Both the position numbers and the translations under genes were made by a program. The notes beneath the pieces are model-generated. The model saw only the letters and a list, made by a program, of their open reading frames with translations. It was not told where the DNA came from and searched no databases. This document shows positions 15,290-38,582 of a DNA stretch of 64,000 nt, piece after piece. This DNA comes from a bacterium (GTDB taxonomy: Bacteria > Desulfobacterota > Binatia > DP-6): NCBI GenBank assembly GCA_026129405.1, contig JAHCID010000001.1, positions 713,237 to 777,236 on the forward strand, read 5' to 3'. Every line of letters starts with the position of its first letter. The stretch's first letter is position 1.

Positions 15290-15294
15290 CGGGG

Positions 15295-18416
<3,122 letters not shown>

Positions 18417-18585
18417 GGTGGCGCTCAGCTATGCGCGCCGAATTGTTGGCCGAGGCGGGAGACTCGTGTCGACGCGTCGCTGACGCCCTCGATCGCGCGA
18501 ACGTCGGCGCCGATCAGCAAAACGGCGCTCATGGCGTGCGATAGCTACGACCTGACCTGACAGCGTACTGCAGGGTCCCGGTGTC

Positions 18586-18609
18586 CTTGCCCGCGGGCGG
18601 CGGGGCAAG
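18586..18609 (-). terminator. Possible terminator hairpin downstream of the unknown 461-aa gene
   Basis: CTTGCCC and GGGCAAG form a 7-bp stem around a GC-rich 10-nt loop. It lies in the gap between the unknown gene and csx17 (A). The position fits 3'-end formation on the minus strand; no T-run was seen. Confidence 0.3.
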
Positions 18610-18615
18610 AGGAGA

Positions 18616-18710
18616 ATGGGGATGAGGAGGGACCAGAAACTCATCGAGGCAAAGGTCGGGTTGCTGGAGCTGGCGAAGTAGCTCGGCAACGTGTCCTAGG
18701 CCTGCCGCTG
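18616..18710 (+). pseudogene. Decayed transposase N-terminus (IS481-like helix-turn-helix)
   Basis: Plus-strand reading from ATG 18616 gives MGMRRDQKLIEAKVGLLELA, then K-stop-LGNVS-stop-ACR. The expected transposase text is ...LLELAKQLGNVSQACR..., so both interruptions are TAG where CAG (Gln) belongs. Similarity ends after ACR. It is a short remnant of an insertion-sequence transposase in the 377-nt gap between the unknown gene and csx17 (A). No other gene was seen in that gap. Confidence 0.6.
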
Positions 18711-18793
18711 GCGGCATGGTGATGCCATTAGACAGCGATCGGGATGGGGCACCGGGACCCGGCGGTGTCAGATCAGGTGTCGAGTCGCACACC

Positions 18794-20179: not shown

Positions 20180-20208
20180 CGTCGATCATCGCCTCCTGTC
20201 GCTACGCC

Positions 20209-20268
20209 GCCCAACGCTTAGCATCAGCGGCGGCCCGCAGCGCCGTCCGCTGCATGCTGTTGTTGGGC
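20209..20268. repeat. attC-like (59-base-element) recombination site
   Basis: The 60-nt element is bounded by GCCCAAC (20209-20215) and GTTGGGC (20262-20268), which fit the attC R-box consensus RYYYAAC/GTTRRRY. Inside, a 4x3-nt unpaired spacer is followed by paired arms AGCAT-CAGCGG and CCGCTGcATGCT, with two unpaired bases (C253 and T246 of the 20xxx coordinates) on the same arm, as attC extrahelical bases are. It covers the last 15 codons of csb2 (B). A plain terminator hairpin is the alternative. Confidence 0.5.
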
Positions 20269-21831: not shown

Positions 21832-22931
21832 TACTCGTCGTCCTCACCCTCGGAGCCGTCATCGTCCTCTTGGGGCTTGTCTCCGCTCTCGGCGCCCTCG
21901 CGGTACAGCTCCTCCCGCGGCCAGAAGACGTCGGTGATGCCCTGCTCGCCGAAGCCGGCCACCGTGATCGCGTCCTGGATGTTCACCGCGAGCACGATAT
22001 CCTCGCCCTCGCTCTGGAGCGCCGTGCGACGAAGGTGACAGCCCGAGCGGTAGCGGAACGGCTGCTCGAGGAGCTTCTGAACCTTCCAGAGCGCGAGTGC
22101 CACGAGCAGCTCCTGATGCTTGTCTGAGATGCCGAGTTGTTCGGCGCCCTTCCTGCGCCCGAAGGAGCGAATGAGGCTTACGTCCAGCACGAAGGTGGCT
22201 CGCATCGACTCCGCGGTGGCGTCATCGGCGGCGAAGATCGGCTGGCCCGAGGTGGTCTTGCGGAGCCGATCGAACTTCACGCCGGAGCGATCCACGCGCC
22301 CCGCGCCGAACGCTTCGAGGTGGGCGGTGAGCGCGCGAGGTATCTTGATCTGCCACTGCGGGAAGAGCACGCCGTGGACGAGGGAGTTGGGGTCAAGTGC
22401 GAAGATCGTCTTGAAGACCTTCCACCACTGGCTGGCCGGGGGGTGGGCCTTCTTACCCTTCGGATTCGGAAGCACGATCCCGAACTTCGAAATGAGGTCC
22501 TGGTCGAACTTGCCGGTTGCCTTCTTGTCTCCCGCCAAAGGGTAGCCGTCGAGGAAGTAGGAGGACGCGATGCGGTGCCCTTCGGTGAGGCTCGTGACGA
22601 CGACCTCGCGATGCTGGGTCGGTTCAGCCCCCTCCGACGCGTTCGTGACGCAGCGGATGTGGGGCAGGCCGTTCAGCTCCTCGACCAAGTCCAGGTCGTG
22701 CGCGCCGCGCTGGCAGACCGACTCGAGGTGATTCGCCATGCTCGCCGCGCTGTCCACGATGCAGACCTGCTCGACGGTGCCGTTCTTGCGGGGCGCCTTG
22801 TAGATGACGTGGCCGATCTCGGGGAAACCCGCTGGCTGGAAGCGGTCACCCGCGACGGGTTCGAGCGTCGCGGTCAGGATCAGCGGGGAGTATCCCTTCA
22901 GGACATCAGCGGGGTTGAGCGTCTTGGGCAT
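21831..22931 (-). CDS. csb1: Type I-G backbone protein Csb1 (Cas7), module B
   Basis: The 366-residue product has the signature GDRFQPAGFPEIGHVIYKAP, the IKIPRALTAHLEAF block and a predicted backbone fold like module A. It is 48 residues longer than its module A counterpart, partly from a very acidic C-terminal tail (ESGDKPQEDDDGSEGEDDE) that module A lacks. The start codon lies 26 nt inside csx17 (B), a translational coupling overlap. Role: Cas7-type filament subunit on the crRNA. Confidence 0.92.
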   Translation of the reverse strand: MPKTLNPADVLKGYSPLILTATLEPVAGDRFQPAGFPEIGHVIYKAPRKNGTVEQVCIVDSAASMANHLESVCQRGAHDLDLVEELNGLPHIRCVTNASEGAEPTQHREVVVTSLTEGHRIASSYFLDGYPLAGDKKATGKFDQDLISKFGIVLPNPKGKKAHPPASQWWKVFKTIFALDPNSLVHGVLFPQWQIKIPRALTAHLEAFGAGRVDRSGVKFDRLRKTTSGQPIFAADDATAESMRATFVLDVSLIRSFGRRKGAEQLGISDKHQELLVALALWKVQKLLEQPFRYRSGCHLRRTALQSEGEDIVLAVNIQDAITVAGFGEQGITDVFWPREELYREGAESGDKPQEDDDGSEGEDDE

Positions 22932-25023
22932 GAACGTCTCCTTGTGGGCGGCGTCGGGGACGCAGCCAGCGTTCGACCAGGGTCGCGCGCTCGCGGCCCG
23001 AGAGGGGGAAGAGGAGAGCCGCGACGAGGCGGTCCGGGTCGTGGGTCCGCCAGCTCGCGTCGAAGGTGGCGAGGCGGACTCCCGCCATGGCGTAGCGGCT
23101 GGCGGCGAGGCGCGCGGCGGAATCAAGGTTGGCGGACCGCACGAGCGTGACGAGGGAGCGCGCTGCCCCGGGCGTGCGGGCGCCGCGCTCGTCGTCGAGG
23201 AGGTCCTCAGGCGAGACCGCGTCGACGACGAGGCGGCGCCGGTCAACGAGGGGTTGTACGAGCCCGAGCAACGCGAGTTCACCGTCAGCGCTCCGGGACG
23301 CAGGCGCTCGAGCCGCGAGCGCGCGGACTTCGTTCGGGACAAGCTTCCAGTCGAAGAGCGCGAGGCGGGAGAGCCAGGCCGTCAGGAGGGGCTCGTCGAC
23401 GTCGCCCGCGAGCCAGCGGCGCAGGTGGTCCGCCGATGCTGGGAGCGGCGCGCGACCGCGCCAGCGCGTACCAGGGAAGTCCAGCTTCGGCTCTTCCAGC
23501 AGCCTTCGAGCGAGCACAGCGCCAATGGCGCGGGAGATATCGCCCGGTCTCCAGACCCAGCGAGGCGGTGCAACCTTCGCGTGCTCGAAGCGGCGGGGGC
23601 GCGCGCGTCCATCGACCTCGCCATCCAACGTCCAAGAAACGCCGAAGCGGAAGGCGGTGAAGGGCAGCGCCTCGGGGAAGCCCGACACCAGCGCCAACGC
23701 GAGGCGGGCCTCGACTCCGGGTGCCTCGTCCTCGAACAATGAGGGGAGCCACTCGATGGGCAGGGGCTGCCATTGGACCCGCTTCTCGCGGAAGCTGCGG
23801 TTGTGATCGATGCGATCAAGCGCGAAGACGACCGCGTCGAGCAGAGCAATGCCGGCATCGGGGCGATCAGGCGCGGCGGCGACGTCGAGGAGCGCGGACT
23901 CGATGGGCCCTCGCAGCCCCGCGAACCGCTTGCCATCGCGAGGGAAGCCGCGCTGCTCGATCAGCATGGTGGCGCGCTCCAGCACGAGCGAGATCGACGC
24001 GCTCACGGCGCTTGCGGCGAGCGAGAACCGGCCTTCCAGCCGAGGCTCGACCGACTTCCGGCTCGTCGTCCTACCGAGCGTGAAGCGGCGGAACTGGTCG
24101 ATGCCTGCGTCCACGCCTCGCTTGTGGATGGCCGTCGCGAACGCGGCCGGCGTCAGGGCACCTCGCCCGGCCAACTCGGCGCGGCCGCGCTGGAAGAGCG
24201 CGCTCACCTCGGGAACCGTCATCGGGCGGGCCCAGAGCGGCGCCCAGATCTCACAGCGGAGGCGATCGGCCTCGTTCTCGGCGCTCGCGGCGACAGGCTG
24301 CGTGACGAAAGGGAACGCGCCGACGGCCCGCGTGCGCGCGCCGAGCCTTCGGGACGCCCCACCGGCGAGAAGCGCCAGCGCTTCACAAGCGAGCGCCATC
24401 GCCCAGGGGGAGGTCTGGCTGGCCCGGGCTGGTGTCTGACCGCTGTTGTAGAGCTTCGTCGCGTCAGCGAACCATGAGCCGGCGTTGAGCTTGTCCAATA
24501 GCCAATCAACGGGCAGCCCCATCAGCAACGCCGAGAGCGAGTCGCGCCTGGGGTCTGCACCCTTCTTCGGCGGTCCGGCAAGCGCATCCACGGCGGCCTT
24601 CCACCCATTCTCGAAGTCCCTCCGTCCGCCGCTGCTACGGAGAAGGGGGTTGAGGCTTACGTGCGCATGTGGGACCGCGTGAGCGGCGGACAGCGCGAGG
24701 AGACCTTCGGGGGCCGAGGCCTGCCACAACGCGAGTGGCTCGCCAGACTTCGTCTTCGTGCCCTTCTGCTGAGCGTTGGACCAAGCCTTGTCGTACGGGG
24801 TCCACGCCCGGTCGCTCGCGACCTGCAGCAGCTCGTTAACCAGCTCGTCCAGGGTCGAGGGCCCACCGACCATCTGGAGCACCTCGTCGCGCCACGCGAT
24901 GCGAGTCGGCGGCCACTTCCGACTGAGCACACGCGAGAGGCCGAGGGACGCAAGGTAGTTGCCCAGGCTGTCGGGCGACAGGCCAGGCAGTGCCACGACT
25001 GGAAGTCGAAGCTCAGCCGCCAC
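22906..25023 (-). CDS. csx17: Type I-G large subunit Csx17 (Cas8-like), module B
   Basis: The product has 705 residues from a GTG at 25023, chosen because it starts MAAELRLPVVALPGLSPDSL, the Csx17 opening motif; upstream residues in frame are translations of cas3 in another frame. It keeps LPGLSPDSLGNYLASLGLSR and the later PFVTQP and GRAELAGRGAL blocks. The PWNGGSGFY motif of module A is replaced by LNPLLRSSGGRRDFENGW, so the two large subunits are strongly diverged and may read different PAMs. It overlaps the cas3 (B) 3' end by 11 nt. Confidence 0.88.
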   Translation of the reverse strand: MAAELRLPVVALPGLSPDSLGNYLASLGLSRVLSRKWPPTRIAWRDEVLQMVGGPSTLDELVNELLQVASDRAWTPYDKAWSNAQQKGTKTKSGEPLALWQASAPEGLLALSAAHAVPHAHVSLNPLLRSSGGRRDFENGWKAAVDALAGPPKKGADPRRDSLSALLMGLPVDWLLDKLNAGSWFADATKLYNSGQTPARASQTSPWAMALACEALALLAGGASRRLGARTRAVGAFPFVTQPVAASAENEADRLRCEIWAPLWARPMTVPEVSALFQRGRAELAGRGALTPAAFATAIHKRGVDAGIDQFRRFTLGRTTSRKSVEPRLEGRFSLAASAVSASISLVLERATMLIEQRGFPRDGKRFAGLRGPIESALLDVAAAPDRPDAGIALLDAVVFALDRIDHNRSFREKRVQWQPLPIEWLPSLFEDEAPGVEARLALALVSGFPEALPFTAFRFGVSWTLDGEVDGRARPRRFEHAKVAPPRWVWRPGDISRAIGAVLARRLLEEPKLDFPGTRWRGRAPLPASADHLRRWLAGDVDEPLLTAWLSRLALFDWKLVPNEVRALAARAPASRSADGELALLGLVQPLVDRRRLVVDAVSPEDLLDDERGARTPGAARSLVTLVRSANLDSAARLAASRYAMAGVRLATFDASWRTHDPDRLVAALLFPLSGRERATLVERWLRPRRRPQGDVHAQDAQPR

Positions 25024-27838
25024 GACGCACCTCGCTTGGCTTGACGCTCGCGCTAGGTTTCTCGCTGGCACGCCTGTCCGCGACACGAACAAGCGCCTCC
25101 AGATAGGCCAGGGCGAATGGGCCGAGATGGCGCGGCTCGGTTTCCGGCACGACGCCGGCACTGCCCTTGTCCTCGGGCCGCCATGGGCCGAGCAGATCGG
25201 CAACAAGGCCAGTCCAGCCTTGCCCCGTCAGCACGAACTCGTTGCCCTCCCAGCGGCCCTCGGCTCCGTCCTTCGCGACGGAGAAGTCGAGCGGCCACTG
25301 GTCGGAGCCGAGCACCAGCGTGCGAGGCTCGCTTCGCACGCCGAACACGTCATCACCCTTTCCACTCGTCGATCTGAGCACGGTGCGCGCCTTCCCGTGG
25401 TGCGTCGCTGCCAGGTAGACGGCGAGGGCTGGGTAGTTGGCGCCGCCGTCGCGGTACCTTCGCCACATCGCGAGCGCGGAGGCCACCTCGTGGCGCAGGC
25501 CGGGGCGGAACTGGATGTGACCTGCCCAGCGAACGCCGGATATCGCTCGCAGCGAATTCAGCTCGTCCTCTCCGAGCTTGTCGTCGATGGCCCAGCGAAG
25601 TCGGACGACATCTTCCCGGCCGCGTCGTCGCGCTTCATCAGGCAGCGAAAGCGCTGCCGGCCGAAGCCGAAGGATCTGACTTCGAACCGCAACGGCTTCG
25701 CCCACCACGTCGACGGCCAGCACGCGTGGGCTCTTGGCGAGCGGCTCATCGGGGATGCCGGAGCGATCAGCCAACGCGGTCTGCCACTGGGGATGTGCCT
25801 TGCCAAGATCGTGAAGCCCGGACGCTTCGATGACCGCGGTGCGCGTATGACCGTTCAGCGCGAGCGTCTCGCACAGCGCCTCTGCCTCGCGCCGTGCGTC
25901 GGCGAGATGGTCCTCGAGTCGCGACCAGTAGCCGACCTCGGTCCAGGTATCGTCGCGCAGGGAAGCTCCACGCCCGGCGCGCGGCACTTCGGCGAGGACG
26001 TTCGACTTGTCTCCGGTCCAGCCCTCGGTAACGTCGTAGCCGCCGATCTCGCGCTTCAGCATGACGAGCATGCCGGGGCGGATGTCCCAGTAGTTCACAC
26101 GCACCCAGTGGTCCGCCTCGTCGTCCCACAGCCAAGCCTTGCCCTTGTCGTTCTCCAGCATCTTCTGGACGCGAACGAAGGACACGGGGCACCCTTCGTT
26201 CGCCGGCTCCAGCAAAGGTCCGTCGAGGTCGTCGCTGGGTGGAGGGACGTCGCCCGACCAGTCGCGCCAGAACACCGTCACGTCGAGGTCTGGATCGGTG
26301 CCACGCACGAAAGCGCTGACGTCGGTGAACCCGCCGTGGACGTCGCGCTCCGTGGAGAACAGCCCGTGGGCATCGAGCGCGCGCGGAAGCGGGCTTGGTC
26401 TCGGCTGCAGCGCCTCGCGCACGTCCTTCTCATTCAGGTCGTCGATCGCCGCTGCGAAGGCCTTCTGCTGGGTAGCGGGCGCGAGCGCGCCGACGAGCTT
26501 TTTCGCGCGGTCGATGTCAGCACTCTCGTAGGGCCCGATGCGCTCGGCCTTCCCGCGCCCGCCCTCCTGCGGTGTCTCCCAAACCCACGCACGGGCGTTT
26601 TGATCGTCTCCCTTTCGATTGAGACGACCCAGACGTTGGAGCACCGAAGGCCATGGCGCGAGCTCCGACCACAAGCGATGCGCGGAGATGTCCAAGCCCG
26701 CTTCGATAACCTGCGTGCTTACGCAGATGAGTCCCGGGTCGTCCTTCGGTAGCTTGCCTGCCTTCCGGTTGGCGTCGAACTCGAGGAGTCGCTGTTCATG
26801 TCGGCTGCGGTCCTCGCCCCGGAACCGTGAGGTCAACAGCACCTTGTGCGTCACCGACAGCGCGCGGAACACCTCACGCGCCATGTCCACGGTGTTGCAG
26901 ATGACGAGGGAAAGCGCGCCCCGCTCATGCTTCTCCACCACAGCCCTGGCGATGGTGTCGGGTGTGACTGCGTTCTCGGTCGACACCCTCGCAGTCCTTG
27001 ACCTCTTGCTGCCGCTCACGTTCGGCGACGTGCCGCTCCACCACTCGACAGCGCGCTTCGCGGCTCGCCACCACGAGAGACCCTGGTCGTCGACGAGCGC
27101 GGCCTTCAGCTTGCTCTCGAATGCAACTTGGTCCGCCGACGGCTCGCCAAGTTCCTCGCGCGTTCGGTCGGTGGTGCTAAGAAACGACGTGCCTGCGGTG
27201 GCGCTCATCCACGTCGTTAGGCACGGCCTCAACGACCGGAACCGCTTCCTTCGCATCCAGTCGAGCTGCGAGGTCGTCCACAGGCCCGGCCCCATGAGCT
27301 GGACTTCGTCAATGAGCCATCGGCAGTCGTTGTTCAGAAGGCCGAAGTGGACCGGCCACTCGAAGCGGCTCATGGCGTAGCCGCGGTTCAACGCACGCGA
27401 CAGCAGCTGGTCCTGCGTCCCGACGAGGACCCACGGCGTGTCCGGCCATCGCGCCCATTGTTCGTCGATCGTGCCGCCCATGAGCTGATACACGCCGATC
27501 TCGATCTCCGGCGTGTTGGCTCTGAGCGCCTCGAAGTAGCCCTTCAAGCGCTGCACGGTCTGCATCACGAGGCTGCGCATTGGCAGACAGACTACGAGGT
27601 GCAGGGGCTCGGGCTGTTTGTCGACCAGGAGGCGCCACGCCCACGCGAGCGCGACCTCCGTCTTTCCAAGACCCGTAGGAACGCGAAGCACGTCGGGCAA
27701 GCCATCGACGGCAACCTGGAGCTGCCAGTCGTATGGCGTGAACCCGCCGGTCGCGGTCTTGAAGAACGCGGTGAAGTTGTCCGCGCGGGAGTCAGTCGCC
27801 TTCACTCTGCCCACTCCCCCTGTTCCGACCTCGGTCAC
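25013..27838 (-). CDS. cas3: Type I-G helicase-nuclease Cas3, module B
   Basis: The 941-residue product has the helicase-then-HD order of type I-G Cas3. The N-terminal superfamily 2 helicase shows Walker A PTGLGKT (residues 54-60), DExx box LIDEVQLMGPG, STQVIEAGLDIS and motif VI SVLQRLGRLNRKGDD. The C-terminal HD nuclease shows SGLHDLGKAHPQWQ and THHGKARTVL. All catalytic signatures are intact. It is the first gene of the cas3-csx17-csb1-csb2 operon of module B. Once recruited by Csx17 it should unwind and degrade the invading DNA strand. Confidence 0.94.
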   Translation of the reverse strand: MTEVGTGGVGRVKATDSRADNFTAFFKTATGGFTPYDWQLQVAVDGLPDVLRVPTGLGKTEVALAWAWRLLVDKQPEPLHLVVCLPMRSLVMQTVQRLKGYFEALRANTPEIEIGVYQLMGGTIDEQWARWPDTPWVLVGTQDQLLSRALNRGYAMSRFEWPVHFGLLNNDCRWLIDEVQLMGPGLWTTSQLDWMRRKRFRSLRPCLTTWMSATAGTSFLSTTDRTREELGEPSADQVAFESKLKAALVDDQGLSWWRAAKRAVEWWSGTSPNVSGSKRSRTARVSTENAVTPDTIARAVVEKHERGALSLVICNTVDMAREVFRALSVTHKVLLTSRFRGEDRSRHEQRLLEFDANRKAGKLPKDDPGLICVSTQVIEAGLDISAHRLWSELAPWPSVLQRLGRLNRKGDDQNARAWVWETPQEGGRGKAERIGPYESADIDRAKKLVGALAPATQQKAFAAAIDDLNEKDVREALQPRPSPLPRALDAHGLFSTERDVHGGFTDVSAFVRGTDPDLDVTVFWRDWSGDVPPPSDDLDGPLLEPANEGCPVSFVRVQKMLENDKGKAWLWDDEADHWVRVNYWDIRPGMLVMLKREIGGYDVTEGWTGDKSNVLAEVPRAGRGASLRDDTWTEVGYWSRLEDHLADARREAEALCETLALNGHTRTAVIEASGLHDLGKAHPQWQTALADRSGIPDEPLAKSPRVLAVDVVGEAVAVRSQILRLRPAALSLPDEARRRGREDVVRLRWAIDDKLGEDELNSLRAISGVRWAGHIQFRPGLRHEVASALAMWRRYRDGGANYPALAVYLAATHHGKARTVLRSTSGKGDDVFGVRSEPRTLVLGSDQWPLDFSVAKDGAEGRWEGNEFVLTGQGWTGLVADLLGPWRPEDKGSAGVVPETEPRHLGPFALAYLEALVRVADRRASEKPSASVKPSEVRRGG

Positions 27839-27923
27839 GCTCGTGCGCTCTCGTCACGTCAGCTCTCGTCTGTCCAACGCGCGTTCACTTGCTCGCCTCG
27901 ACGACGGTCATCGTCCTGCAGCT

Positions 27924-28425
27924 TCACGCCCTCACCTCCGCCCCGAACCCGATCCGCCGCCGCTGCTTCGGTTCCGGCAGCGTCATCAGCTCGCGGATCG
28001 CGTCGAACACGACTTTGAACTGCCGATCGTACTTCTGCTCCAGCGCGTCGAGCTTGCGGGCAAGGTCCGCGTGCGTAGCCAGCAAGCGGCGCAGCTTCAC
28101 GAACGTCCGCATGATGTTGCCGTGAACTGCCCGATCGCTGCGGAGGACGCTCGACAGCATCGCCAAACCCTGCTCGGTGAAGGCATACGGCGGATACCAG
28201 CGCCCGCCCCACGAACTTTGAGGTCACAATCTGTGACCTCAAATCGTCGAGCTCCGATGTCGTGAGACGGAACATGAAGTCGGAAGGAAACCGCCTCAGG
28301 TTCCGCTTGATGGCTTGGACGAGCACCTTGGTCTCGACGCCGTAGGGGAGCGCCAGATCTGCATCGAGCATCACCTTGTGGCCGCGGACGAGCAGAATCG
28401 CTTGCTCGATTCGCACGAGCATCAT
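27924..28425 (-). pseudogene. ORF6N-domain (phage-type) protein, frameshifted
   Basis: The N-terminal half, MLVRIEQAILLVRGHKVMLD then RNLRRFPSDFMFRLT, is the ORF6N DNA-binding domain found in phage antirepressor-type proteins. After LRSQIVTS the frame breaks; the expected continuation [20 protein letters not shown] runs in another frame up to [16 protein letters not shown]. Removing one A of the AAA at 28217-28219 (TTT on the plus strand) restores the whole protein. It is either a genuine pseudogene or a one-base assembly error. It sits between the two cas3 genes, at the right edge of module B. Confidence 0.8.
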
Positions 28426-28450
28426 TGGACCACCGCGTGGCCGCATCGCC

Positions 28451-31400
28451 TCACGCCGCATCCGCCCGCCCCACCCGCAGCAGATCCACCCCCTCATCCC
28501 CCCAAACCTGCTCGCGCGCCGACGCCCGCCAGTCCGCCACCCGCACCAGCGCCTCCATCCACGCCAGCCGGAACGGCCCGTACCGCGCGACGAGCCCCTG
28601 CACCCGCTCCGCCCACGACCGCCCCGCCGCGCCGCCGCCCAGCTCGGCGACGTCGAGCCGCAGCACCGCCGAGCGCACCGTCTCGCGCTCCCCGATCTGC
28701 AGCCCCGGCAGGCGATCCCCGTCCCAGACGCCGCGCGCGAAGCGCTTAGCCGGATCCTCGGGGGCGCGCTCGTCGGGGAGCGCGCGCAGCCCCATGCGCA
28801 CCTTCCCGTGGTGGGCCGCGACCAGGTACGCGACCAGATCGGCGTCGGGCTCGCCGTCGTGCTGATCGATCCAGGCGAGCGCGGAGGCCAGCTCGTGCCG
28901 GAAGTGGCGGCGCTCGTGTCGCCCCGAGCAGGGCGACTTGGCGAGCGCGCCGGCGGCGAGGCCGGCGACCGCCGTGCAGCTCCGCAGCGTCTTCTGGAAG
29001 ACGGGATGCACCTTGCCTACGTCGTGCCAGCGCGCGGCGCGCTCTACCGCCGCGCGCTCCACAGAGGCGCCGAGCGCGTCGCACAGGGCGCGCGCCTCGT
29101 CCTCCACGTCGACGAGGTGCCGTTCGAGGGCGACGGGATGGATCTGGCAGCTCCGCCAGTCGGCGTCGTAGTCCTCGGCGGGCTGCGGCTCCTCGGGCGC
29201 GATCGGCTCCACGCGCGTGCGGCTCGACGCCAGGAAGCCGAGGCGCGGATCGTAGCCGCCGAGCGCGGCGTCGAGGAGCAGCGTCTCGCCCGGCCGCGCG
29301 CGCCGATCGAGCGGCACCCATGCGCCGTCGAGCGCATCGCGACGGCGGATCGCGCCAACCTCGACGCGGATGCGCTTGCGGTACGTCTCGAGCTCCGAGA
29401 GCCCGGCGCGGCACAGCTCGTCGCGCTCGGGAGCCGGCGCCTCGGCCGGCGTGGCGGCGGACAGGTCGCGCCAGAACACCGCGACGTCGAGCTCGTCGGC
29501 GTCGCGCACGTATGGGGAGACGTCGATGTCGAAGCCGGAGAGGTCGGCCTGGGTGTCGAAGAGATCGAGCAGATCGCGGCGTCGCAGCACGAGGCCCGGC
29601 TTCGGCTCGGTGCGAGCGGGCGGGAGGGCCGACGGGCTCGCGCTCGTGAGCGACGCCAGGCATGCGCGGGCGTCGTCGAGCTCTGCGGCCGTGTACGGGA
29701 GCGGCAGCTTCTCCTCGCTCGCGACGTCGATCCAGCGCACCGTCGCGTCGTCGAGCTCGCCGTAGCGGTTGGCGCGGCCGAAGCGCTGCACCAGCGACGG
29801 CCACGGCGCGAGCTCCGTGAAGAGCGTCGCGGCACTCACGTCGATGCCGGCTTCGAGCGCCTGCGTGGAGACGGCGATCGTGCCCGCCTCGCGCGGCGGC
29901 GCCGTCAGGCGTCGTTCGGCGGCCAGGCGATCGCCGGGGCGGAAGCGGGCGTGGACCAGCACGAGGTCGGGCTCGAGGCTCTGGCGGTCGAGCTCCTGGT
30001 ACAGCGCCTGCGCGCGCGCCACCGAGTTCAGGAAGACGAGCGTGCGCGTTCCGGGGCGATGCGCCTTCAGCACCTCGGCTGCGAGCGCGGTGACGTAGCC
30101 CGCGGCGTCGCGCTTGGCGCTCTCGACGTCGAGCCGTGTCCGGGCTCGCGCCACCGTCTTCGGTGCATGGAGGCGCCGCCGTACGTCGGGGTGGGCGCGG
30201 TCGGCGTCGTCGAGCGAGAGCCGGACCGCGCCCGGCAGATGCGCCGCGAAGTCGGCCGTCGCCAGCCAGCGCTCGTCCAGCGTGGCGGAGAGCCAGAGGC
30301 TGCGCGTGTCGTGCGGGATGCCGAGCGACCGCCGCAGGCCTTCGAGCTGTGCGGACGTCGCCTGGCCGGGGCCCATGAGCTGGACCTCGTCGAAGACCCA
30401 CAGCGCATCCGTGTGCAGGAGCGCGAACGGCACCGGCCAACGTGCGCGCGGTACGCCGTAGCCGCGCATGAGCGCGGCCGACAGCAGGAGATCCTGCGTC
30501 CCGACGATGATCGCCGGGCTCTCGGGCTGCCCCGTCCAGGCGTCGTCGCGCGCGCCGCCCATCTGGAGGTACACCTGCGGCGGTGCGATGCCGGCGTCGT
30601 CGAAGAGCGCGCGGCTGGCGTCCAGCCAGCGGCGCGCGGTGCCCGCGGTCTGCTCGACTAGGACGCGCATCGGCAGGCAGTAGACGAGGCGGCGCGGCGT
30701 GGCGGCGTCGGCGCGGAGCAGCCGGTGCAGCCAGGCGACGATCACCGCGGCGGTCTTGCCGAGTCCGGTCGGTATCTCGACGATCTCCGGCCACGGTCCG
30801 TCCGCGAGACGCTGCTGATACGGATACGGCTCGGTGCCGGTGAGCGTGCGGAAGAACGTGGCGTAGTCGAGGTTTGCTTCCATGTCGTGGGCCCTCGGAG
30901 TTTCCCGGACCGACGACGGCTCCTCCGGGTCGGCATCCGGCGCCAGCGTGCGGATCCGGCGCCACGACACGAGACGCACGCCCGAGCGTTCGCTCGACAC
31001 GTCGCCGCTATGGACGAGTGTTGGTGGGCCGAAGCTCGCCGTCGAGCGCTCCACCTGCGCGCGCAGCGAGGTCAGCCAGGCCGGCGACGGCGTTCTGCTC
31101 GCCTTCACCTCGACCGGCACCTGACGCTCGCCCTCGTCGATCAGGACGTCGATCTCGTTGCCGGCACGATCCCGCCAGAACGAAAGGTTCGCCGGCAGCC
31201 CGGCATTGTAGCGGGCCTTCAGGAGCTCGGTGACGACCCAGGTTTCGAAGAGCGCCCCGCGCGCCGGGTGACGGGCGAGGTCGCGAGCGCTGCGGATGCC
31301 GATGACCGCAGCCGCGAGGCCGGGATCGATCACGTACAGCTTCGGCGTCCGGACCGGGCGCTTGCGGAAGCTGGGCTCGTTCGCCGGCAGCCGGAAGAGC

Positions 31401-32140
31401 ACGTAGCTCGCTTCCAGGACCGACAGCCACTCGAGCGCCGTGCGTTGGTCGACGCCGCAATCCGCGGCCAGCGAGGTGACGTTGACGAGCTGGCCCGTGC
31501 GCGATGCGCAGGCCTGGAAGAAGCGGTCGAAGGTCGTGAGGTCGCGGATGTTGGCGACCCGGCGAACGTCGCGCTCGACGTACGTGCGCAGGTAGTCGAG
31601 GTACCAGCGCCGCGGATCGACCGGCCGGTCGTGGACGGGCGGAAAGAGGCCGCGGAACAGCAGCTCGTCGAGGCTCGCCGGCTCCCGCCCCGCGTCCTGC
31701 AGCTCGGCCAGGGAGAACGGCAGTAGCTCCAGGATGGCGACGCGCCCGGCGAGCGATTGGGTGATCGCTTCGAGGAGCTGGATCTGCTGCGAGCCGATGA
31801 GGATGAAGAGGCCCATCCGGGCGTCGCGATCGAGGATCGCCTGGAGGTAGCGGAATAGGTCGGGACAGCGCTGGGCCTCGTCGAGAACGGCGCCGTCGGG
31901 GAATCGCGCGAGGAAGCCGCGTGGGTCGCTGGCGGCGTGCTGCTCCTCGTCCGGGTCCTCGAGGGAGCAGTAGGGTCTGTCGCGAAGGAGGCGACGGGCC
32001 AGGGTCGTTTTCCCGGACTGAGCAGGTCCCGTAAGGATCACTCCCTTGTTGGATGCAAGTGCGCATCGCGCTGATTTATCAGCGATTCTTGCTAGCTCAT
32101 GCGACGGCACTTTTATGGCTGATTCATCCTTGCTTGGCAA
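28451..32140 (-). CDS. cas3: DUF4143 AAA ATPase fused in frame to type I-G Cas3 (module A)
   Basis: One uninterrupted frame encodes 1229 residues. Residues 1 to about 395 are a COG1373-type ATPase: Walker A GPAQSGKT (38-45), Walker B LDEAQ (86-90), then DUF4143 with the nuclease-like FETWVVTELLKARYN and EIDVLID...VPVEVKAS. A 25-residue acidic/Pro linker follows. From Met420 (MEANLDYATFFRTLTG) it is a complete type I-G Cas3: PTGLGKT, FDEVQLMGPG, SLVQRFGRANRYGE, and C-terminal HD ARWHDVGKVHPVF plus AHHGKVRMGL. The start is a TTG at 32140 overlapping the addA stop; a GTG at 32110 is also possible. Met420 (ATG at 30883) has GAGG 9 nt upstream, so Cas3 alone could also be translated. Confidence 0.88.
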   Translation of the reverse strand: MPSKDESAIKVPSHELARIADKSARCALASNKGVILTGPAQSGKTTLARRLLRDRPYCSLEDPDEEQHAASDPRGFLARFPDGAVLDEAQRCPDLFRYLQAILDRDARMGLFILIGSQQIQLLEAITQSLAGRVAILELLPFSLAELQDAGREPASLDELLFRGLFPPVHDRPVDPRRWYLDYLRTYVERDVRRVANIRDLTTFDRFFQACASRTGQLVNVTSLAADCGVDQRTALEWLSVLEASYVLFRLPANEPSFRKRPVRTPKLYVIDPGLAAAVIGIRSARDLARHPARGALFETWVVTELLKARYNAGLPANLSFWRDRAGNEIDVLIDEGERQVPVEVKASRTPSPAWLTSLRAQVERSTASFGPPTLVHSGDVSSERSGVRLVSWRRIRTLAPDADPEEPSSVRETPRAHDMEANLDYATFFRTLTGTEPYPYQQRLADGPWPEIVEIPTGLGKTAAVIVAWLHRLLRADAATPRRLVYCLPMRVLVEQTAGTARRWLDASRALFDDAGIAPPQVYLQMGGARDDAWTGQPESPAIIVGTQDLLLSAALMRGYGVPRARWPVPFALLHTDALWVFDEVQLMGPGQATSAQLEGLRRSLGIPHDTRSLWLSATLDERWLATADFAAHLPGAVRLSLDDADRAHPDVRRRLHAPKTVARARTRLDVESAKRDAAGYVTALAAEVLKAHRPGTRTLVFLNSVARAQALYQELDRQSLEPDLVLVHARFRPGDRLAAERRLTAPPREAGTIAVSTQALEAGIDVSAATLFTELAPWPSLVQRFGRANRYGELDDATVRWIDVASEEKLPLPYTAAELDDARACLASLTSASPSALPPARTEPKPGLVLRRRDLLDLFDTQADLSGFDIDVSPYVRDADELDVAVFWRDLSAATPAEAPAPERDELCRAGLSELETYRKRIRVEVGAIRRRDALDGAWVPLDRRARPGETLLLDAALGGYDPRLGFLASSRTRVEPIAPEEPQPAEDYDADWRSCQIHPVALERHLVDVEDEARALCDALGASVERAAVERAARWHDVGKVHPVFQKTLRSCTAVAGLAAGALAKSPCSGRHERRHFRHELASALAWIDQHDGEPDADLVAYLVAAHHGKVRMGLRALPDERAPEDPAKRFARGVWDGDRLPGLQIGERETVRSAVLRLDVAELGGGAAGRSWAERVQGLVARYGPFRLAWMEALVRVADWRASAREQVWGDEGVDLLRVGRADAA

Positions 32141-35100
32141 GTTGCGAGTGCCGAATGGGCTCCGGCGAGTGGCGGGGCACGTCTTCCCCGCCGCCGACCT
32201 CCACCCGCACCAACCCCCCGCCCACCACGAAGTGCAGCCACACGCCGACCACCGCCCGCCCCGACGCCGCCCGCATCGCCCCCGCGTACGCTGCGAGCTG
32301 CCCTGTGTGCTCCGCCGCCTTCGCCGCCCACTGCTCCCGGCCGCCCTTGAACGACTTGTGATCGACGACCACCCAGCCGGCGTCCGTGTCGAGCACGAGG
32401 TCGGCGAACCCGGACACGATCGTCTCGCCCTGACGGAGACGGATCGGCCACTCGCGCAGCCAGCGTCGGACCGGGTAGCGCTTCCCCAGGGTCGTGCGCA
32501 GCTCCGTGGCGCGCCGAAGCATCTCGGATTCCGGGACGGCGCCGGCGATGCCGTGGCGGCGGAGGAGCCCCGCGGCGAGCGCGAGGCGCTGGGCGTCGGG
32601 CGCCGACGGGTCGTCGGCGGCCAGGAAGCCGTGCAGGCAGTTGCCGAGCGGCTCCTCGTCGGGATCCCCGTTCAGCGTGAGCCGCCGGCCGACGAGCAGC
32701 GTCTCGGAAACGGTTGCCGTCACCGCGAGCGGCGGCAGTGCCGAGGCTTGCCGGCGCGCAGCGGGCCGCGAGCCGGCGGCCGGAACCGCCGCGGGTGCGA
32801 ACCAGAGCTCCGAGGCGTCGTCGGACCGCGGGCTCGTCGCGACCGCGGCGAAGGTGCGCGTCTCGACCGGGACTCGCACGTCGCCGTCGCCGATCGCGAC
32901 GACGTGGACGCCGGGCTCGCGCGGCAGGCCGAAGCGAACGATGCCGTCCGGCGCGAAGAGCGGGTCGAGGCCCGCGTGGCGCAGGCGCGCCGCGCCGCCC
33001 GGACGGACGGGGAGCACGAGGACGTCGCGTGCCCTGGTGAGCGCGACGTAGAGTGTGCGCAGGTACTCGTCGCGCGCGGCCGATTCGGCCCGGGCCTTCT
33101 CGCCGGACGCGGTGACGGCGTCGGCGAGCGACAGACCGACGCGGTGTCCGCCGTACGGCCACGGCCAGAAGCGGATCCAGCGACCGGCGAGCGGGTCGCC
33201 CAGGTCGATCGTCTCGCGGTCGCTGGTGACGCCGACGTCCCACAGTCGCTCCCGCGGCTTCTGGTCGAGGTCGGCCACCGCGACGATCGGCCACTCGAGC
33301 CCCTTGGCGCCGTGCCACGTGAAGACGACGACGGCGTCGTCGCCGAGCCCTTCGCTCTGCTCGTCGAGTCGCTGTCGTGCCGTTTCGTCGAGCCAGGCTA
33401 GGAGCCCCGCGACCGTGGCCGCGGCTCCGCGCCGCGTGCAGCGCTCCTCGTATGCGCCGGCGAGGCGGCGGAGCGCGTCGAGATTGCCCAGGCGCTGATC
33501 GCGTCTCCCCCAGCAGAGGACGACCCGGGGAGCGTCGATGACGTGGACGACGCGATCGAGCGCTTCGGCGGGCGTGAGCCACGGCAGCTCCGCTCGCAGC
33601 GCCGCGATAGCCTGCACGATGGGATGGTCGGCGGCCCACGCTTCGGACGGCCGTCCGGCGGCCAGGTGGGCGAGCCGATCGACGAGCCAGGCTTCCGGCT
33701 CCGGATCGTCGCGGGTGAGGGAGACGATCTCCGCGAGCGCCAGCGTGTCGTGGGCGTCGAGGAGCAGCTTCATGGCGGCGAGCGTCAGGATCGCCTCGGG
33801 TGTGCGCAGCAATCCGGCGCGTGCCAGTGCCGCCCGCATGCCGGCTCGCTCCAGCGCGGCCGCCACCTCGGCGCAGCTGTCATTGGTGCGACAGAGGATG
33901 GCCACGTCGCCGGGACGCGCGACGCGAACCGCGCCGGTTGCGGGATCGACCACGTGGACGGGGGGCTCATCCCGAAGGCCGAGCAGCACGGCGATGCCGG
34001 CGGCTAGCGCGGCCGACTCCCCCTCGGTGTTCTTCGCGGGCAGCACCCAGGTCTGGAGCGGTACGGGTAGACCGGCTGCTTCGTCCCGCACGGGGTCGAG
34101 GACGATGCGCTCGCGCGGCCAGCGTTCGCCGAACGCGCCGGCGAACAGCTCCGACGTCCAGGCCACCAATGCCGGCCGGGCGCGATACGAGCGTGCGAGG
34201 ATGTCCGCCGGGTCGACCCGACCGGCGGCGCCGACCACCGCGTCCATTAGCAGCGGATCGGCGCCCCGGAAGGCGTAGATGGACTGCTTCGGATCGCCGA
34301 CCCAGACGGAGCGTCGCGCGAGGCGGGCGAGCTCCAGGAACACGGCGAGCTGGATCGGGCTGGTGTCCTGGAACTCGTCGACGAAGGTGACGTCGAGCTC
34401 CGCCGCCAGCACGGCGCGGACCTCCGCGCGCCCGAGGAGGCCCAGCACGAGCGCCTCCTGGTCGACGAAGTCGACGAGCCCGCGCTCGCGCTTCCATGCC
34501 TGGTACGTGTCGAGGCTGCGTGCTGCCAGCTCGAAGACCTGGGTGACGTAGCGCGTGAGGTCGTCGCGGAGTCGCGGGTGCTCGGCGTGGCGTGCGGCGG
34601 TGAGTCGGACGGGCGCTGAGCTCGCCTGGCTCTTGCGACCGGGCTCGGCTTTTCCGAGTCGTGCCCAGGTGCTCCACGGCAGGGCTTCTCCGCGCCGCAG
34701 CGACACCAGGACGGCACGCAGCTCGTCGCCATAGTCCCGCGTCGCTTTGGTCTCGTCGCCCGGGGCGGGGAGAGCTGCGAGGGCGCTCTCGACGGCGTCG
34801 CGCAGCTCGCGATCGAGGGCGGCGTCTCCCGCGGCATCCGTGCGCGGAAGGAGCGCCAGCAGCGACTCGCACGAGCGCCGCCCCGAGGCGCGCACCGCAG
34901 CGGCGTCGAGCGCGTTGGAGCGGGCGGCGTCGATGATGGCTCGGACGCGATGCTGCCAGTCCTTGCGCTCCTCGCCCGGCGGCGAGCGGTCGAAGCCGAA
35001 GGCGCGGTCGAGCCGGAGCAGGTCGTCGATCAGGGTGGGCTCGAGCACCTCGTGCAGCGCCTGCCGGAAGAGGAGCGCCTGGTCGTGCTCCTCGATCACC

Positions 35101-35402
35101 CGCAGCTCGGGCGAAAGACCGGCCTCGAACGCGAAGCGCGCCAGCAGCCGGCCGCACACGCTGTTGACGGTGCCGAGCATCCCGCCGGCGAGGCGATCGG
35201 CCTGCTCGGGGAGGCCTCGCGCGAACGCGGCACGCCGTGCCCGCTCGCCGAGCTCGGCGGCGGCCTTGCGCGTGAACGTGGTGGCGACGACGCCTTCGGG
35301 CCGCGCGGTGCCTGCCATGGACGGGTCGAGAGCGTCCACGAGCTCCTGCGTCAGGCGGAACGTCTTGCCGCTGCCCGCTCCCGCACTGACGATGCGGATC
35401 AC
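32124..35402 (-). CDS. AddA-like UvrD-family helicase with C-terminal PD-(D/E)XK nuclease
   Basis: The product has 1092 residues from a GTG (35402) that overlaps the upstream stop as GTGA and has GAGGAG about 5 nt before it. The N-terminus carries Walker A SAGAGSGKTF, then TTFTRKAAAELGERA, Walker B FVDEFQDTSPIQ, GDPKQSIYAFRGAD, FTWHGAKGLEWP and YVALTRARDV, all helicase motifs of the UvrD/AddA class. The last 150 residues hold a nuclease core (GFADLVLDTDAGWVVVDHKS, with the D...D-x-K arrangement). It acts with the upstream nuclease to resect double-strand ends. It is coupled to the ATPase-Cas3 gene by a 17-nt overlap, so it belongs to the CRISPR transcript. Confidence 0.88.
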   Translation of the reverse strand: MIRIVSAGAGSGKTFRLTQELVDALDPSMAGTARPEGVVATTFTRKAAAELGERARRAAFARGLPEQADRLAGGMLGTVNSVCGRLLARFAFEAGLSPELRVIEEHDQALLFRQALHEVLEPTLIDDLLRLDRAFGFDRSPPGEERKDWQHRVRAIIDAARSNALDAAAVRASGRRSCESLLALLPRTDAAGDAALDRELRDAVESALAALPAPGDETKATRDYGDELRAVLVSLRRGEALPWSTWARLGKAEPGRKSQASSAPVRLTAARHAEHPRLRDDLTRYVTQVFELAARSLDTYQAWKRERGLVDFVDQEALVLGLLGRAEVRAVLAAELDVTFVDEFQDTSPIQLAVFLELARLARRSVWVGDPKQSIYAFRGADPLLMDAVVGAAGRVDPADILARSYRARPALVAWTSELFAGAFGERWPRERIVLDPVRDEAAGLPVPLQTWVLPAKNTEGESAALAAGIAVLLGLRDEPPVHVVDPATGAVRVARPGDVAILCRTNDSCAEVAAALERAGMRAALARAGLLRTPEAILTLAAMKLLLDAHDTLALAEIVSLTRDDPEPEAWLVDRLAHLAAGRPSEAWAADHPIVQAIAALRAELPWLTPAEALDRVVHVIDAPRVVLCWGRRDQRLGNLDALRRLAGAYEERCTRRGAAATVAGLLAWLDETARQRLDEQSEGLGDDAVVVFTWHGAKGLEWPIVAVADLDQKPRERLWDVGVTSDRETIDLGDPLAGRWIRFWPWPYGGHRVGLSLADAVTASGEKARAESAARDEYLRTLYVALTRARDVLVLPVRPGGAARLRHAGLDPLFAPDGIVRFGLPREPGVHVVAIGDGDVRVPVETRTFAAVATSPRSDDASELWFAPAAVPAAGSRPAARRQASALPPLAVTATVSETLLVGRRLTLNGDPDEEPLGNCLHGFLAADDPSAPDAQRLALAAGLLRRHGIAGAVPESEMLRRATELRTTLGKRYPVRRWLREWPIRLRQGETIVSGFADLVLDTDAGWVVVDHKSFKGGREQWAAKAAEHTGQLAAYAGAMRAASGRAVVGVWLHFVVGGGLVRVEVGGGEDVPRHSPEPIRHSQLAKQG

Positions 35403-38062
35403 GGGTGCTCCTCGGGTACGAAGCCGGTGAGCGACGCGTAGTCGTTGAAGCGGCACTCGGTCTGGGTGAGGCGGCAGCCGATCGGCGGCGCCGAATCGTC
35501 GTCGGGCTCGGTGCCCGCGGTCATCTCGATCCAGCCGCGCTCGAGCAATGCCCGGCGCCAGCGCCACGTCGGGCCGACGGTGGCCCACAGGTCCGCTGGA
35601 GCGCCGGCCGTGTCGGTGACGTGCACCGCGCCGGGAAACGCGCTCGCGTCGGCGCTCAGCAGCGTCGGTGGGTCGAGCACGAGGTAGGCCGATGCCGGCC
35701 ACGGCTGGCCGCTGCGTGCGAGCAGGTGACCGTAGAGCGCGAGCTGCAGGGCGGTGTTCTCGCGCAGCTCGGCGCGGCGATACTTGCGCCCGCCCCACTT
35801 GACGTCGATGACGCCGCGCCGGCCGTCCCGATGCTCGAGCGCCACGTCGAGACGTCCCTCGAGCGCGCCGCCGTCGAATGCGCCGTCGAGTGCGTGCTCG
35901 AACCCGAGGATGCGCCAGCCGCCGCGGCGAACCGCGTCGAGCAGGACGAGCGCACCGCGCGCGCTGCGATCGAGCAGCTTGCGCCGGTCGGCGCCGCGTC
36001 CGGGCAAGAGCAGCACCGCGCCCTCGCCCGCCAGCGCGACGTCGAGGCGTCTCTCGAGTGCGGCACGTATGGCGTCGATCCCGGCGCCGGCCAGGGTCGG
36101 ATCGCCGGCGGCCTCGGCGATCAGGCCGTGGGCCAGCGAGCCCAGCAGGAGGTTGTCGTCGGCGAGCCGGGCCGTGAAGCCGGCCTTGATGCGTGCCTTG
36201 TATCGCAGCGCCCACTGGAAGGGGTGGTTGATGAACGCGTTCAGGCTGGTGAACGAGTGATGCTCGTGTGACGACGACAGGGCTCCGGCGGGCAGGCGCC
36301 ACCAGCGCTTCGGGCGCGCGAGGGGTCGTCGGGGGACGGGGGCCGAGGGCAGGGTGCCGCCGAGCCAGTCTCGCGCCTGCACCACGACCGCGGCGTAGTC
36401 GCCCCCGAACCCGCTGGTGATGCGGTCCCAGAGGGGATGCCGTGTGGCCGGCTCTCCGCGGCGACGCTCCGGCGCCACCAGCACGACGCGCGCGCTCGCG
36501 GCGCGAAGCGGGGTCAGATCGGCCTGGGTGCGTCGCAGCCTGTCCGCCGCGGGGTCGAGCAGCGCGATGCCTTCGCGCGCGAGCGCCGCGCGCTCCGCGA
36601 TCGACCACGGCGATGGTGCGACGGGCGGGACGCCGGCCGCCGTGAAGTCCCACCAGACGACGGTAGGGACCGAGGCAAGGATCGCGGCGGGCGACGACAC
36701 GCACGGTACGTGGCCCGCTTCGGCCGTCGCGCCGGGGTGGGGGGCTCCGGCCTGGGATGCCGCATCGAGCAGGCGGCGCAGGGCGGGCGGGGTGAGACGC
36801 GGCTGCGAGTCCGTCTCCGCCAGCCGCTTCGCTTCGCGGGCTGCGCCGAGGGCGACCCAGAGCACGTCGTCGTCGCCGCTCGTCGCAATGCGTCCGGCGA
36901 GCCACCGCGCGACCCGCGCGCAGGTAGCGGCGACGACCTCCCGTGGCATCCCGTCGTCGGTCCGGAAGCGCACGGGTTGGGTCCACTCCCGGATCTCCTG
37001 CATGAGCGCGTCGATGCTCCGGGCGGCCGCGCCGGCTTCGCGCATCCGCTCGGCGACGTACGCCAGCGTCGTGTGCCATGGCGTTCCGCCGATGCCCGGG
37101 CTCCCGGCGATCGCGCGCGCGAGGCTCAGCGCCGCCGCACGCGGCACCGGACCGACCGGGAGGGACAGCAGCTCGAGGGCCCGATTGGGGTCGACCGGCT
37201 CCCACTGGAGTGCGAGCGCGAGCGGCAGCACCTGGAGGGCGGGTCGGAGCCGCGACGACGCCGAGGCGCCGGCCGACGGCAGCCCGCGTTGACGAACCGC
37301 CTGGTCGAGGAGCGCATCGCCCGCCGCGTCGATGACCACGGCGGGACCGCTCTGCGAGGCGAGCCAGCTCGCCGTCGCCTCGGCGGCTTCGACGTCGCTG
37401 CTCGCCGCGAGCAGGAGGAGCGAGCCGTCGCCCCGGGCTGGCGCGGGACCGCTCGCCCCGGACAGCGTGCGCTGCAGGTGCCCGAGGTCGCCGGGCGCGT
37501 TCCCCGACGGCGCGCGGGAGGGCTCGATGGCTATGCCGCGGGCGGCGAGAGCATCGAGCGCCCGGCGCCAGAGTGCGGGAAGGCCGGCGGGATCGTCGAG
37601 GATCTCGACGCCTGCGATCGGCAGGGACCGCCGGGGGATTTCGTCGACCAGCCGCGCGAGACGTTCGGCCGGGCTCGGGTCCGGTGGCAAGGCGGAGCGG
37701 ACGGCTTCGACGGCCGCGAAGTCGCGAAGGCGCGGCGGCGAAGCGGACGTCGCGCTGCCGTCCCAGCCGGCAAGCAGGATCTCCTCGCGCCAGCGGAACA
37801 GCGTCCAGGCCACGCCGAGCGGGTCTGCGGCAAGGGATGCCGAGTAGAATCGCCTGCCGTCGTCGGCGCGCTCCAGGCACCTGCGATACTCCCCGATGCG
37901 GATTGGATCGCTCCCCTCGCTCCCCCCGAGGCTGCAGTGGGTCTCGAGCAGGGTGAGAAATCCGAGGGGCCCCACGCGAAGCTCGCCGTGCGCGGCCTCT
38001 CGCTCGCCGAGAGGCTCGGGGTGGCTCGGGACATCGAGGGCGAGACCGAATGTGATGCGCAT
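35399..38062 (-). CDS. AddB-like protein with C-terminal PD-(D/E)XK nuclease
   Basis: The ATG at 38062 starts MRITFGLALDVPSHPEPL; a further upstream ATG would add an Arg-rich tail and is not favoured. The 887-residue product has a degenerate helicase-like body without a convincing Walker A, then a nuclease domain: SFTSLNAFINHPFQWALRYK, GSLAHGLIAEA, and the catalytic block GRLDVALEHRDGRRGVIDVK, with QLALYGHLL after it. This is the usual partner of AddA-type helicases in high-GC bacteria. It heads the minus-strand CRISPR transcript and diverges from cas2 across 208 nt. Confidence 0.85.
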   Translation of the reverse strand: MRITFGLALDVPSHPEPLGEREAAHGELRVGPLGFLTLLETHCSLGGSEGSDPIRIGEYRRCLERADDGRRFYSASLAADPLGVAWTLFRWREEILLAGWDGSATSASPPRLRDFAAVEAVRSALPPDPSPAERLARLVDEIPRRSLPIAGVEILDDPAGLPALWRRALDALAARGIAIEPSRAPSGNAPGDLGHLQRTLSGASGPAPARGDGSLLLLAASSDVEAAEATASWLASQSGPAVVIDAAGDALLDQAVRQRGLPSAGASASSRLRPALQVLPLALALQWEPVDPNRALELLSLPVGPVPRAAALSLARAIAGSPGIGGTPWHTTLAYVAERMREAGAAARSIDALMQEIREWTQPVRFRTDDGMPREVVAATCARVARWLAGRIATSGDDDVLWVALGAAREAKRLAETDSQPRLTPPALRRLLDAASQAGAPHPGATAEAGHVPCVSSPAAILASVPTVVWWDFTAAGVPPVAPSPWSIAERAALAREGIALLDPAADRLRRTQADLTPLRAASARVVLVAPERRRGEPATRHPLWDRITSGFGGDYAAVVVQARDWLGGTLPSAPVPRRPLARPKRWWRLPAGALSSSHEHHSFTSLNAFINHPFQWALRYKARIKAGFTARLADDNLLLGSLAHGLIAEAAGDPTLAGAGIDAIRAALERRLDVALAGEGAVLLLPGRGADRRKLLDRSARGALVLLDAVRRGGWRILGFEHALDGAFDGGALEGRLDVALEHRDGRRGVIDVKWGGRKYRRAELRENTALQLALYGHLLARSGQPWPASAYLVLDPPTLLSADASAFPGAVHVTDTAGAPADLWATVGPTWRWRRALLERGWIEMTAGTEPDDDSAPPIGCRLTQTECRFNDYASLTGFVPEEHP

Positions 38063-38270
38063 CGTCGAACCGCGAGGCGTCCTAGCACGCAGGCTTGACA
38101 GCCGCTGACGGCGCGGGTCGGCATAGGGCATTCCGGGCTACGACGTCAATTCTGGCGCATCACCCCTCTATCTACCGAATGCGAGAAGACACTGGTCTTG
38201 CCATTCGCTGCCACGCAGCCCTACAACGGATCGTGACCCGGTGGGCATTGCTGGCCCGCGGTGGATCCCG
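38063..38270. promoter_or_regulatory. Divergent promoter region between addB-like and cas2
   Basis: The 208-nt gap should hold promoters for both halves of the island. It is more AT-rich than its surroundings around 38145-38225. An imperfect inverted repeat at 38177-38206 (GAATG...AAGAC ACTG GTCTT...CATTC) could be an operator or a transcript hairpin. No convincing -35/-10 pair was identified. Confidence 0.4.
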
Positions 38271-38582
38271 ATGAGGAACACGTATCTCGTCTGCTACGAC
38301 ATCTGCGAGGATCGGCGCCTGCGCCTCGTCTACCGCACGATGCGCGATTTCGGCGATCACCTGCAGTACTCGATCTTCGAGTGTCAGTTCACGCCGACGG
38401 ACCTCGTGCGATGCCGGCACGCGCTGAGCGAGATCATCGATCATCGCGAGGATCAGGTGCTCTTCGTCGATCTGGGGCCCGTCGAGGGGCGCGGCGATCG
38501 CGTCATCACCGCACTGGGTAAAGCGTACTCGCCCATCGACAGCCCGTGCATCGTCGTCGACCGCCCGTCCGGGGGGCGATGA
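38271..38582 (+). CDS. cas2: CRISPR adaptation endoribonuclease-fold protein Cas2
   Basis: The 103-residue product has the ferredoxin-like Cas2 start MRNTYLVCYDICEDRRL, with the conserved Asp (YDI) and the characteristic QYSIFECQF strand. The ATG at 38271 gives the normal Cas2 length; the in-frame GTG at 38241 would add ten atypical residues. Cas2 dimers bridge Cas1 dimers in the spacer integrase. Here it precedes cas4-cas1, with an ATGA overlap; the more usual order is cas4-cas1-cas2. Confidence 0.95.
   Translation: MRNTYLVCYDICEDRRLRLVYRTMRDFGDHLQYSIFECQFTPTDLVRCRHALSEIIDHREDQVLFVDLGPVEGRGDRVITALGKAYSPIDSPCIVVDRPSGGR

Follow-up and report, generated by a model that had tools for sequence, protein, structure and literature searches.

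Does an unbroken reading frame that joins a candidate defence ATPase to a CRISPR-associated Cas3 encode a single working effector, or does it mark two neighbouring genes that have simply run together? The question is raised by a frame on the minus strand that extends from 32140 to a stop codon at 28453-28451 of the 64,000-nucleotide stretch of DNA analysed here (the window, to which all positions refer). Counted from TTG 32140, the numbering used for residues below, it contains 1229 codons and no internal stop. A preliminary description of the locus had given these coordinates correctly, although not the strand, and its account of one unbroken 1229-residue frame, in which both partners are identifiable and retain their motifs, is borne out by Pfam, NCBIfam and PADLOC profiles and by comparison across 40 ATPase homologues and 20 Cas3 relatives. 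The reading that we favour, to which we assign a probability of roughly 0.45, is that loss of a stop codon joined an embedded PDC-S01 gene to cas3A, giving rise to an ATPase-nuclease-Cas3 protein that would be delivered by Cascade and, in addition, to free Cas3A.

Domain composition of ATPase::Cas3A

The N-terminal part of ATPase::Cas3A (28451-32140, minus strand) consists of an AAA_14 domain at residues 31-147 (31700-32050, minus strand; Pfam PF13173, E 3e-23) followed by a DUF4143 domain at residues 189-348 (31097-31576, minus strand; Pfam PF13635, E 1e-47), both full length and above cut-off, and is called PDC-S01 by PADLOC (E 1e-94). Walker A (residues 38-46, with G38, G43 and K44) and Walker B (D87 and E88) are intact, and these residues are invariant among 40 homologues including the fusion, as are E299, D331, E344 and K346, the PD-(D/E)XK residues located in the C-terminal part of the DUF4143 domain. 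The nearest free homologues are 51% identical to the fusion ATPase. Since the ATPase and nuclease residues and the fold are fully kept, the fused ATPase has not decayed. In these properties it resembles the PDC-S01 and COG1373-like AAA_14-DUF4143 ATPases, but it is not a stand-alone single gene as they are, having no stop before Cas3A, into which it runs directly. The COG1373/DUF4143 identity originally proposed for this part thus holds, whereas its status as a PDC-S01 defence candidate had been missed.

PDC-S01 is an abundant defence candidate, named by means of a guilt-by-embedding approach, which is reported to be the fourth most common in prokaryotes and among the commonest stand-alone ones; most candidates of this kind reportedly still await experimental validation (PMC12988326). 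The literature searched yielded no mechanism for PDC-S01, and no solved relative close to the ATPase by sequence was found. A fold search placed Cdc6/Orc, STAND proteins and Avs nearest, together with matches to the Can2 nuclease, all of them weak (best TM ∼0.4-0.5). These matches make a switch controlling a nuclease a reasonable, if unproven, model for the ATPase part.

The remainder of the frame (28451-30883, minus strand) encodes a Cas3 of type I-G (formerly I-U), termed Cas3A, in which the helicase is followed by a C-terminal HD domain (residues 1005-1207). The Cas3g profile TIGR02621 matches from residue 425 with 763.9 bits against a curated cut-off of 400, and SF2 helicase motifs I-VI and the HD catalytic residues are all kept in comparison with 20 relatives. 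As in other Cas3g loci, the gene is accompanied by Cas8g/Csx17, Csb1, Csb2, Cas4-Cas1, Cas2 and a CRISPR array. The difference lies at the N-terminus, for Cas3g relatives start at the helicase, at the equivalent of Met420, whereas the fusion possesses 419 extra codons specifying the ATPase-nuclease and a linker. The fused Cas3A is a variant of the Cas3g architecture, although free Cas3A could still be produced from an internal start.

The linker and the internal start

The linker (residues 397-419, ∼23 residues; 30884-30952, minus strand) aligns to neither free ATPases nor free Cas3 and is predicted to be disordered from about residue 401. In an AlphaFold2 model of residues 1-420 the core scored about 95 and residues 401-420 about 48-60; the full-length fusion alignment mixed both halves and was left unused for structure prediction. 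In approximately 30 free ATPase homologues the frame closes 2-19 codons beyond the position matching residues 393-396, L036 being a longer exception. With free ATPases ending shortly beyond residue 396 and free Cas3g beginning where Met420 aligns, the linker coincides with a former gene boundary. The ATG of Met420 (30881-30883, minus strand) is preceded by GAGGG 8 nt upstream and matches the starts of free Cas3g, and the earlier proposal that an internal ATG at 30883 with a Shine-Dalgarno-like site could provide an 810-aa free form agrees with what we find.

By itself, the open junction lends a genuine fusion little support, because 24 codons free of stops are common by chance in such GC-rich DNA (P about 0.71). 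The alignments are more telling: where its homologues stop within 2-19 codons, the ATPase lacks any stop, so that it can be synthesized only as a fusion with Cas3A. Codon-position GC in the linker is coding-like, with GC3 of 0.88 versus GC2 of 0.58 (permutation p 0.017, on 24 codons only).

Two type I-G modules served by one array

Two type I-G effector modules, diverged from each other, stand in tandem at the locus (window 13766-27838), both served by one Cas2 (38241-38582, plus strand; TIGR01573), one Cas4-Cas1 fusion of the kind typical of type I-G (38546-40399, plus strand; Pfam Cas1 E 3e-83, Cas4 E 1e-15) and one array of 76 identical repeats (40585-46114, plus strand), whose repeat occurs in no other array of the genome. 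Module B is encoded on the minus strand by a second Cas3g, Cas3B (25013-27838; TIGR02621, 587 bits), Cas8g/Csx17 (22906-25206; TIGR04113, 438 bits), Cas7g/Csb1 (21831-23342; Pfam PF09617) and Csb2 (20224-21831; TIGR02165). The remaining genes of module A, also on the minus strand, are Cas8g/Csx17 (16248-18416; TIGR04113, 685 bits, with a match at 16293-18404 in a Csx17 search of its own genome), Cas7g/Csb1 (15295-16440; TIGR02570, 136 bits) and Csb2 (13766-15286; TIGR02165, 193 bits, at residues 369-872 of an 874-aa frame). A HEC-07-like defence candidate (18794-20179, minus strand; PADLOC HEC-07, E 1e-29) is located between the modules, and an ORF6N gene of the PDC-S05 type (27859-28497, minus strand; Pfam, PADLOC) is frameshifted near 28217 when compared with the intact copies of L092 and L090.

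Comparison of 31 related loci placed Cas3A in one set with Csx17A, Csb1A and Csb2A and Cas3B in another with the module B genes. The separation is evident in L120, where identity for Cas3, Csx17, Csb1 and Csb2 is 50, 44, 69 and 45%, respectively, with module A versus 31, 28, 30 and 36% with module B. That the fused protein might be an orphan Cas3 lacking a Cascade was ruled out by the matching second Csx17, Csb1 and Csb2 at 18416-13766. The preliminary description had correctly assigned the fused Cas3 to type I-G but overlooked the second Cas3g and the two complete modules, whose presence alters the assignment of the fused Cas3 to a Cascade. In type A relatives cas3 and csx17 adjoin, whereas here module B and the HEC-07-like gene intervene, with Cas8g, Csb1 and Csb2 of module A lying 10 kb downstream of the fusion, behind module B. 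The inferred cause is either insertion of module B into module A or recombination between them; the two ends of module B showed no direct repeat that would mark an insertion. Tandem I-G modules in which A is split by B are possibly more notable than the fusion, and the locus constitutes a natural comparison of two diverged I-G effectors, one Cas3 having an extra domain and the other not.

Distribution of the fusion and of related genes

A class-wide search of 148 genomes, with the fusion and Cas3A alone as queries, revealed no other fusion; Cas3-like matches occurred in 28 other genomes of this set, of which none was fused (0/28). Likewise, no fusion was detected in a 395-genome sample of the phylum, in 56 genomes of a second class or in plasmids, the scoring in the large searches being limited in each genome to the few top-ranking candidates. 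A pattern scan of genome contigs, which requires exact short peptides, returned ATPase relatives only, with no Cas3 in the flanking DNA, and a Cas3 search of viral contigs returned no relative. On the class, phylum-sample, second-class, plasmid and contig searches a recurrent architecture was rejected and, within the genomes searched, the fusion is a singleton. Occurrence of the same domain order in related genomes, which had been set beforehand as a test of the fusion, was absent from every genome examined. No second genome carries the fusion, so nothing points to its having been under long-term selection.

Two candidate parallels were rejected. An open frame linking Cas3g to Fic in G069 (L089:6449-9940; Fic Pfam E 3e-8) has a gap with a non-coding GC pattern and is therefore probably two genes, and an 841-aa 'ATPase' frame in G064 resolved into two genes in different frames, Cas8g and a free ATPase, the operon there comprising Cas3g, Cas8g, the free ATPase and Cas4-Cas1. 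Free DUF4143 genes are enriched in other I-G loci, with 3 observed versus 0.32 expected (P about 0.004), the G064 operon holding one of them. This enrichment agrees with the guilt-by-embedding logic from which the PDC names derive (PMC12988326) and is also expected from defence islands alone. At L135:4860-10260, Cas3g shares an operon with a divergent Cas8g and a free PDC-S01 ATPase, and Cas4-Cas1 follows further on. Separately, an 85-codon frame matching Cas3 lies upstream of a full cas3g in another locus (L093:12146-12403) and is perhaps the remnant of a second copy.

Relation to known Cas3 fusions

Known Cas3 fusions include Cas2-Cas3 in type I-F, Cas5-Cas3 in a type I-B variant and Cas3''-Cas10d (PMC7074321, PMC10910872). 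ATPase::Cas3A resembles them in that the Cas3 helicase or nuclease is joined to another defence component but differs in that the partner is a non-Cas defence candidate rather than a Cas protein. In the VRR-NUC-Cas11 fusion of type I-E (PMC10910872) a PD-(D/E)XK nuclease is similarly joined to a type I component, although the nuclease family and the Cas partner are different and an AAA ATPase is absent. A fusion of Cas3 to AAA_14/DUF4143 was not encountered in the literature searched, which took in few subscription papers and no preprints and is weak evidence on this point. To that extent the earlier statement that no Cas3 with such an N-terminal ATPase has been described holds, the fusions in that literature having other partners.

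Origin and function of the fusion

In the reading that we favour, a free-standing PDC-S01 gene would once have been situated directly upstream of the cas3A gene of module A and would have been joined to it in frame when the ATPase stop codon was lost. Every copy of the ATPase would consequently carry Cas3A at its C-terminus, tethered by some 20 residues of flexible linker, while the Shine-Dalgarno-like site and ATG kept at Met420 probably also yield free Cas3A, which would sustain ordinary interference. In one other I-G system Cas3 is stably associated with Cascade through Cas8g and has been shown to degrade target DNA (PMC9638904). By analogy, fused Cas3A may be held on Cascade A via Cas8g and brought to crRNA-matched DNA, where the nuclease domain could cut DNA unwound by Cas3A and the ATPase could serve as a switch. 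In favour of such coupling, three enzymatic parts with intact catalytic residues reside in one unbroken frame, and the codon-position GC of the linker is coding-like, unlike that of the gap in the Cas3-Fic frame. Against it, the internal start would supply normal Cas3A without the ATPase, and Cas8g of module A would have to tolerate an N-terminal extension of ∼45 kDa on Cas3A. The most specific form of the proposal, that Cascade A performs crRNA-guided delivery of a switch-type ATPase-nuclease together with Cas3, such that an enhanced and a plain I-G effector share one 76-repeat array, we regard as doubtful.

Nearly as likely as a functional tether, and a serious contender, is incidental read-through, in which an independent embedded defence gene lost its stop by drift, Cas3A is made from Met420 and the tether is functionless. 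The singleton status of the fusion in all surveys, the Shine-Dalgarno-like site kept at the internal ATG, the ease with which an open 24-codon junction arises in GC-rich DNA and the rank of PDC-S01 as one of the most frequent stand-alone defence candidates (PMC12988326) are all consistent with this explanation; the complete preservation of the ATPase-nuclease argues against it, as does a linker that looks coding, though on only 24 codons. It would be more surprising if the fusion were an artefact, with a wrong base in the assembly hiding the stop of the ATPase and two ordinary genes lying side by side. The frameshift in the ORF6N gene about 2.7 kb away indicates that decay or error has occurred in this stretch, and a single substitution would turn any of several linker codons into a stop. 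However, neither of the other frames was found to have a stop near the junction, so that an indel error would not split the genes; an indel artefact is thus ruled out and a substitution would be needed, a wrong base call that could still separate the two genes, in a genome of 15 contigs that is 100% complete with 0.35% contamination. Similarly improbable is an addiction or abortive infection device, in which a harmful ATPase-nuclease is kept silent by fusion to Cas3A and Cascade until Cas3A is engaged, cleaved or lost, and is then released. The resemblance to Cdc6/Orc, STAND and Avs folds combined with Can2 nuclease matches corresponds to a switch-plus-effector pattern, and other single-gene defence candidates (ORF6N and HEC-07) occur in the same locus, but the fold matches are weak, no partner or repressor was identified and there is no evidence of toxicity.

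That PDC-S01 occurs naturally fused to a Cas3 whose activity is known suggests that it may act on DNA with a guided effector, and the fusion provides a directly testable construct for PDC-S01 action.

The start of the fusion protein and the AddAB-like pair

ATPase homologues begin with 'MIxRxL', which aligns with Val11 of the fusion (GTG 32110), and residues 1-13 are of low confidence in the structure model. Judged by this alignment and model, TTG 32140 is probably not the start and GTG 32110, giving a product of 1219 aa, is likelier. Initiation at TTG 32140 would create a 17-nt overlap with the AddA-like gene, whereas GTG 32110 lies 13 nt past the AddA-like stop (32126-32124) and produces none; the overlap previously reported is therefore not supported, as it rests on the unlikely TTG start. 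The first 45 ATPase codons (window 32000-32140) have a GC content of about 0.5 compared with about 0.7 in the locus. A search around the fusion start found no sigma-70-like promoter.

The AddA-like gene (32124-35402, minus strand), whose start was placed by codon-position GC, encodes a UvrD helicase with a PD-(D/E)XK nuclease and is paired with a gene for an AddB-like protein with a PD-(D/E)XK domain (35399-38131, minus strand; Pfam PF12705, E 3e-19). Together (32124-38131) they sit between Cas2/Cas4-Cas1 and the effector genes, a place at which the other I-G loci examined have no such pair. The AddA-like gene was probably acquired, as its best matches in genomes of the same family are about 34% identical, and the pair could function in prespacer supply or could be an embedded defence pair.
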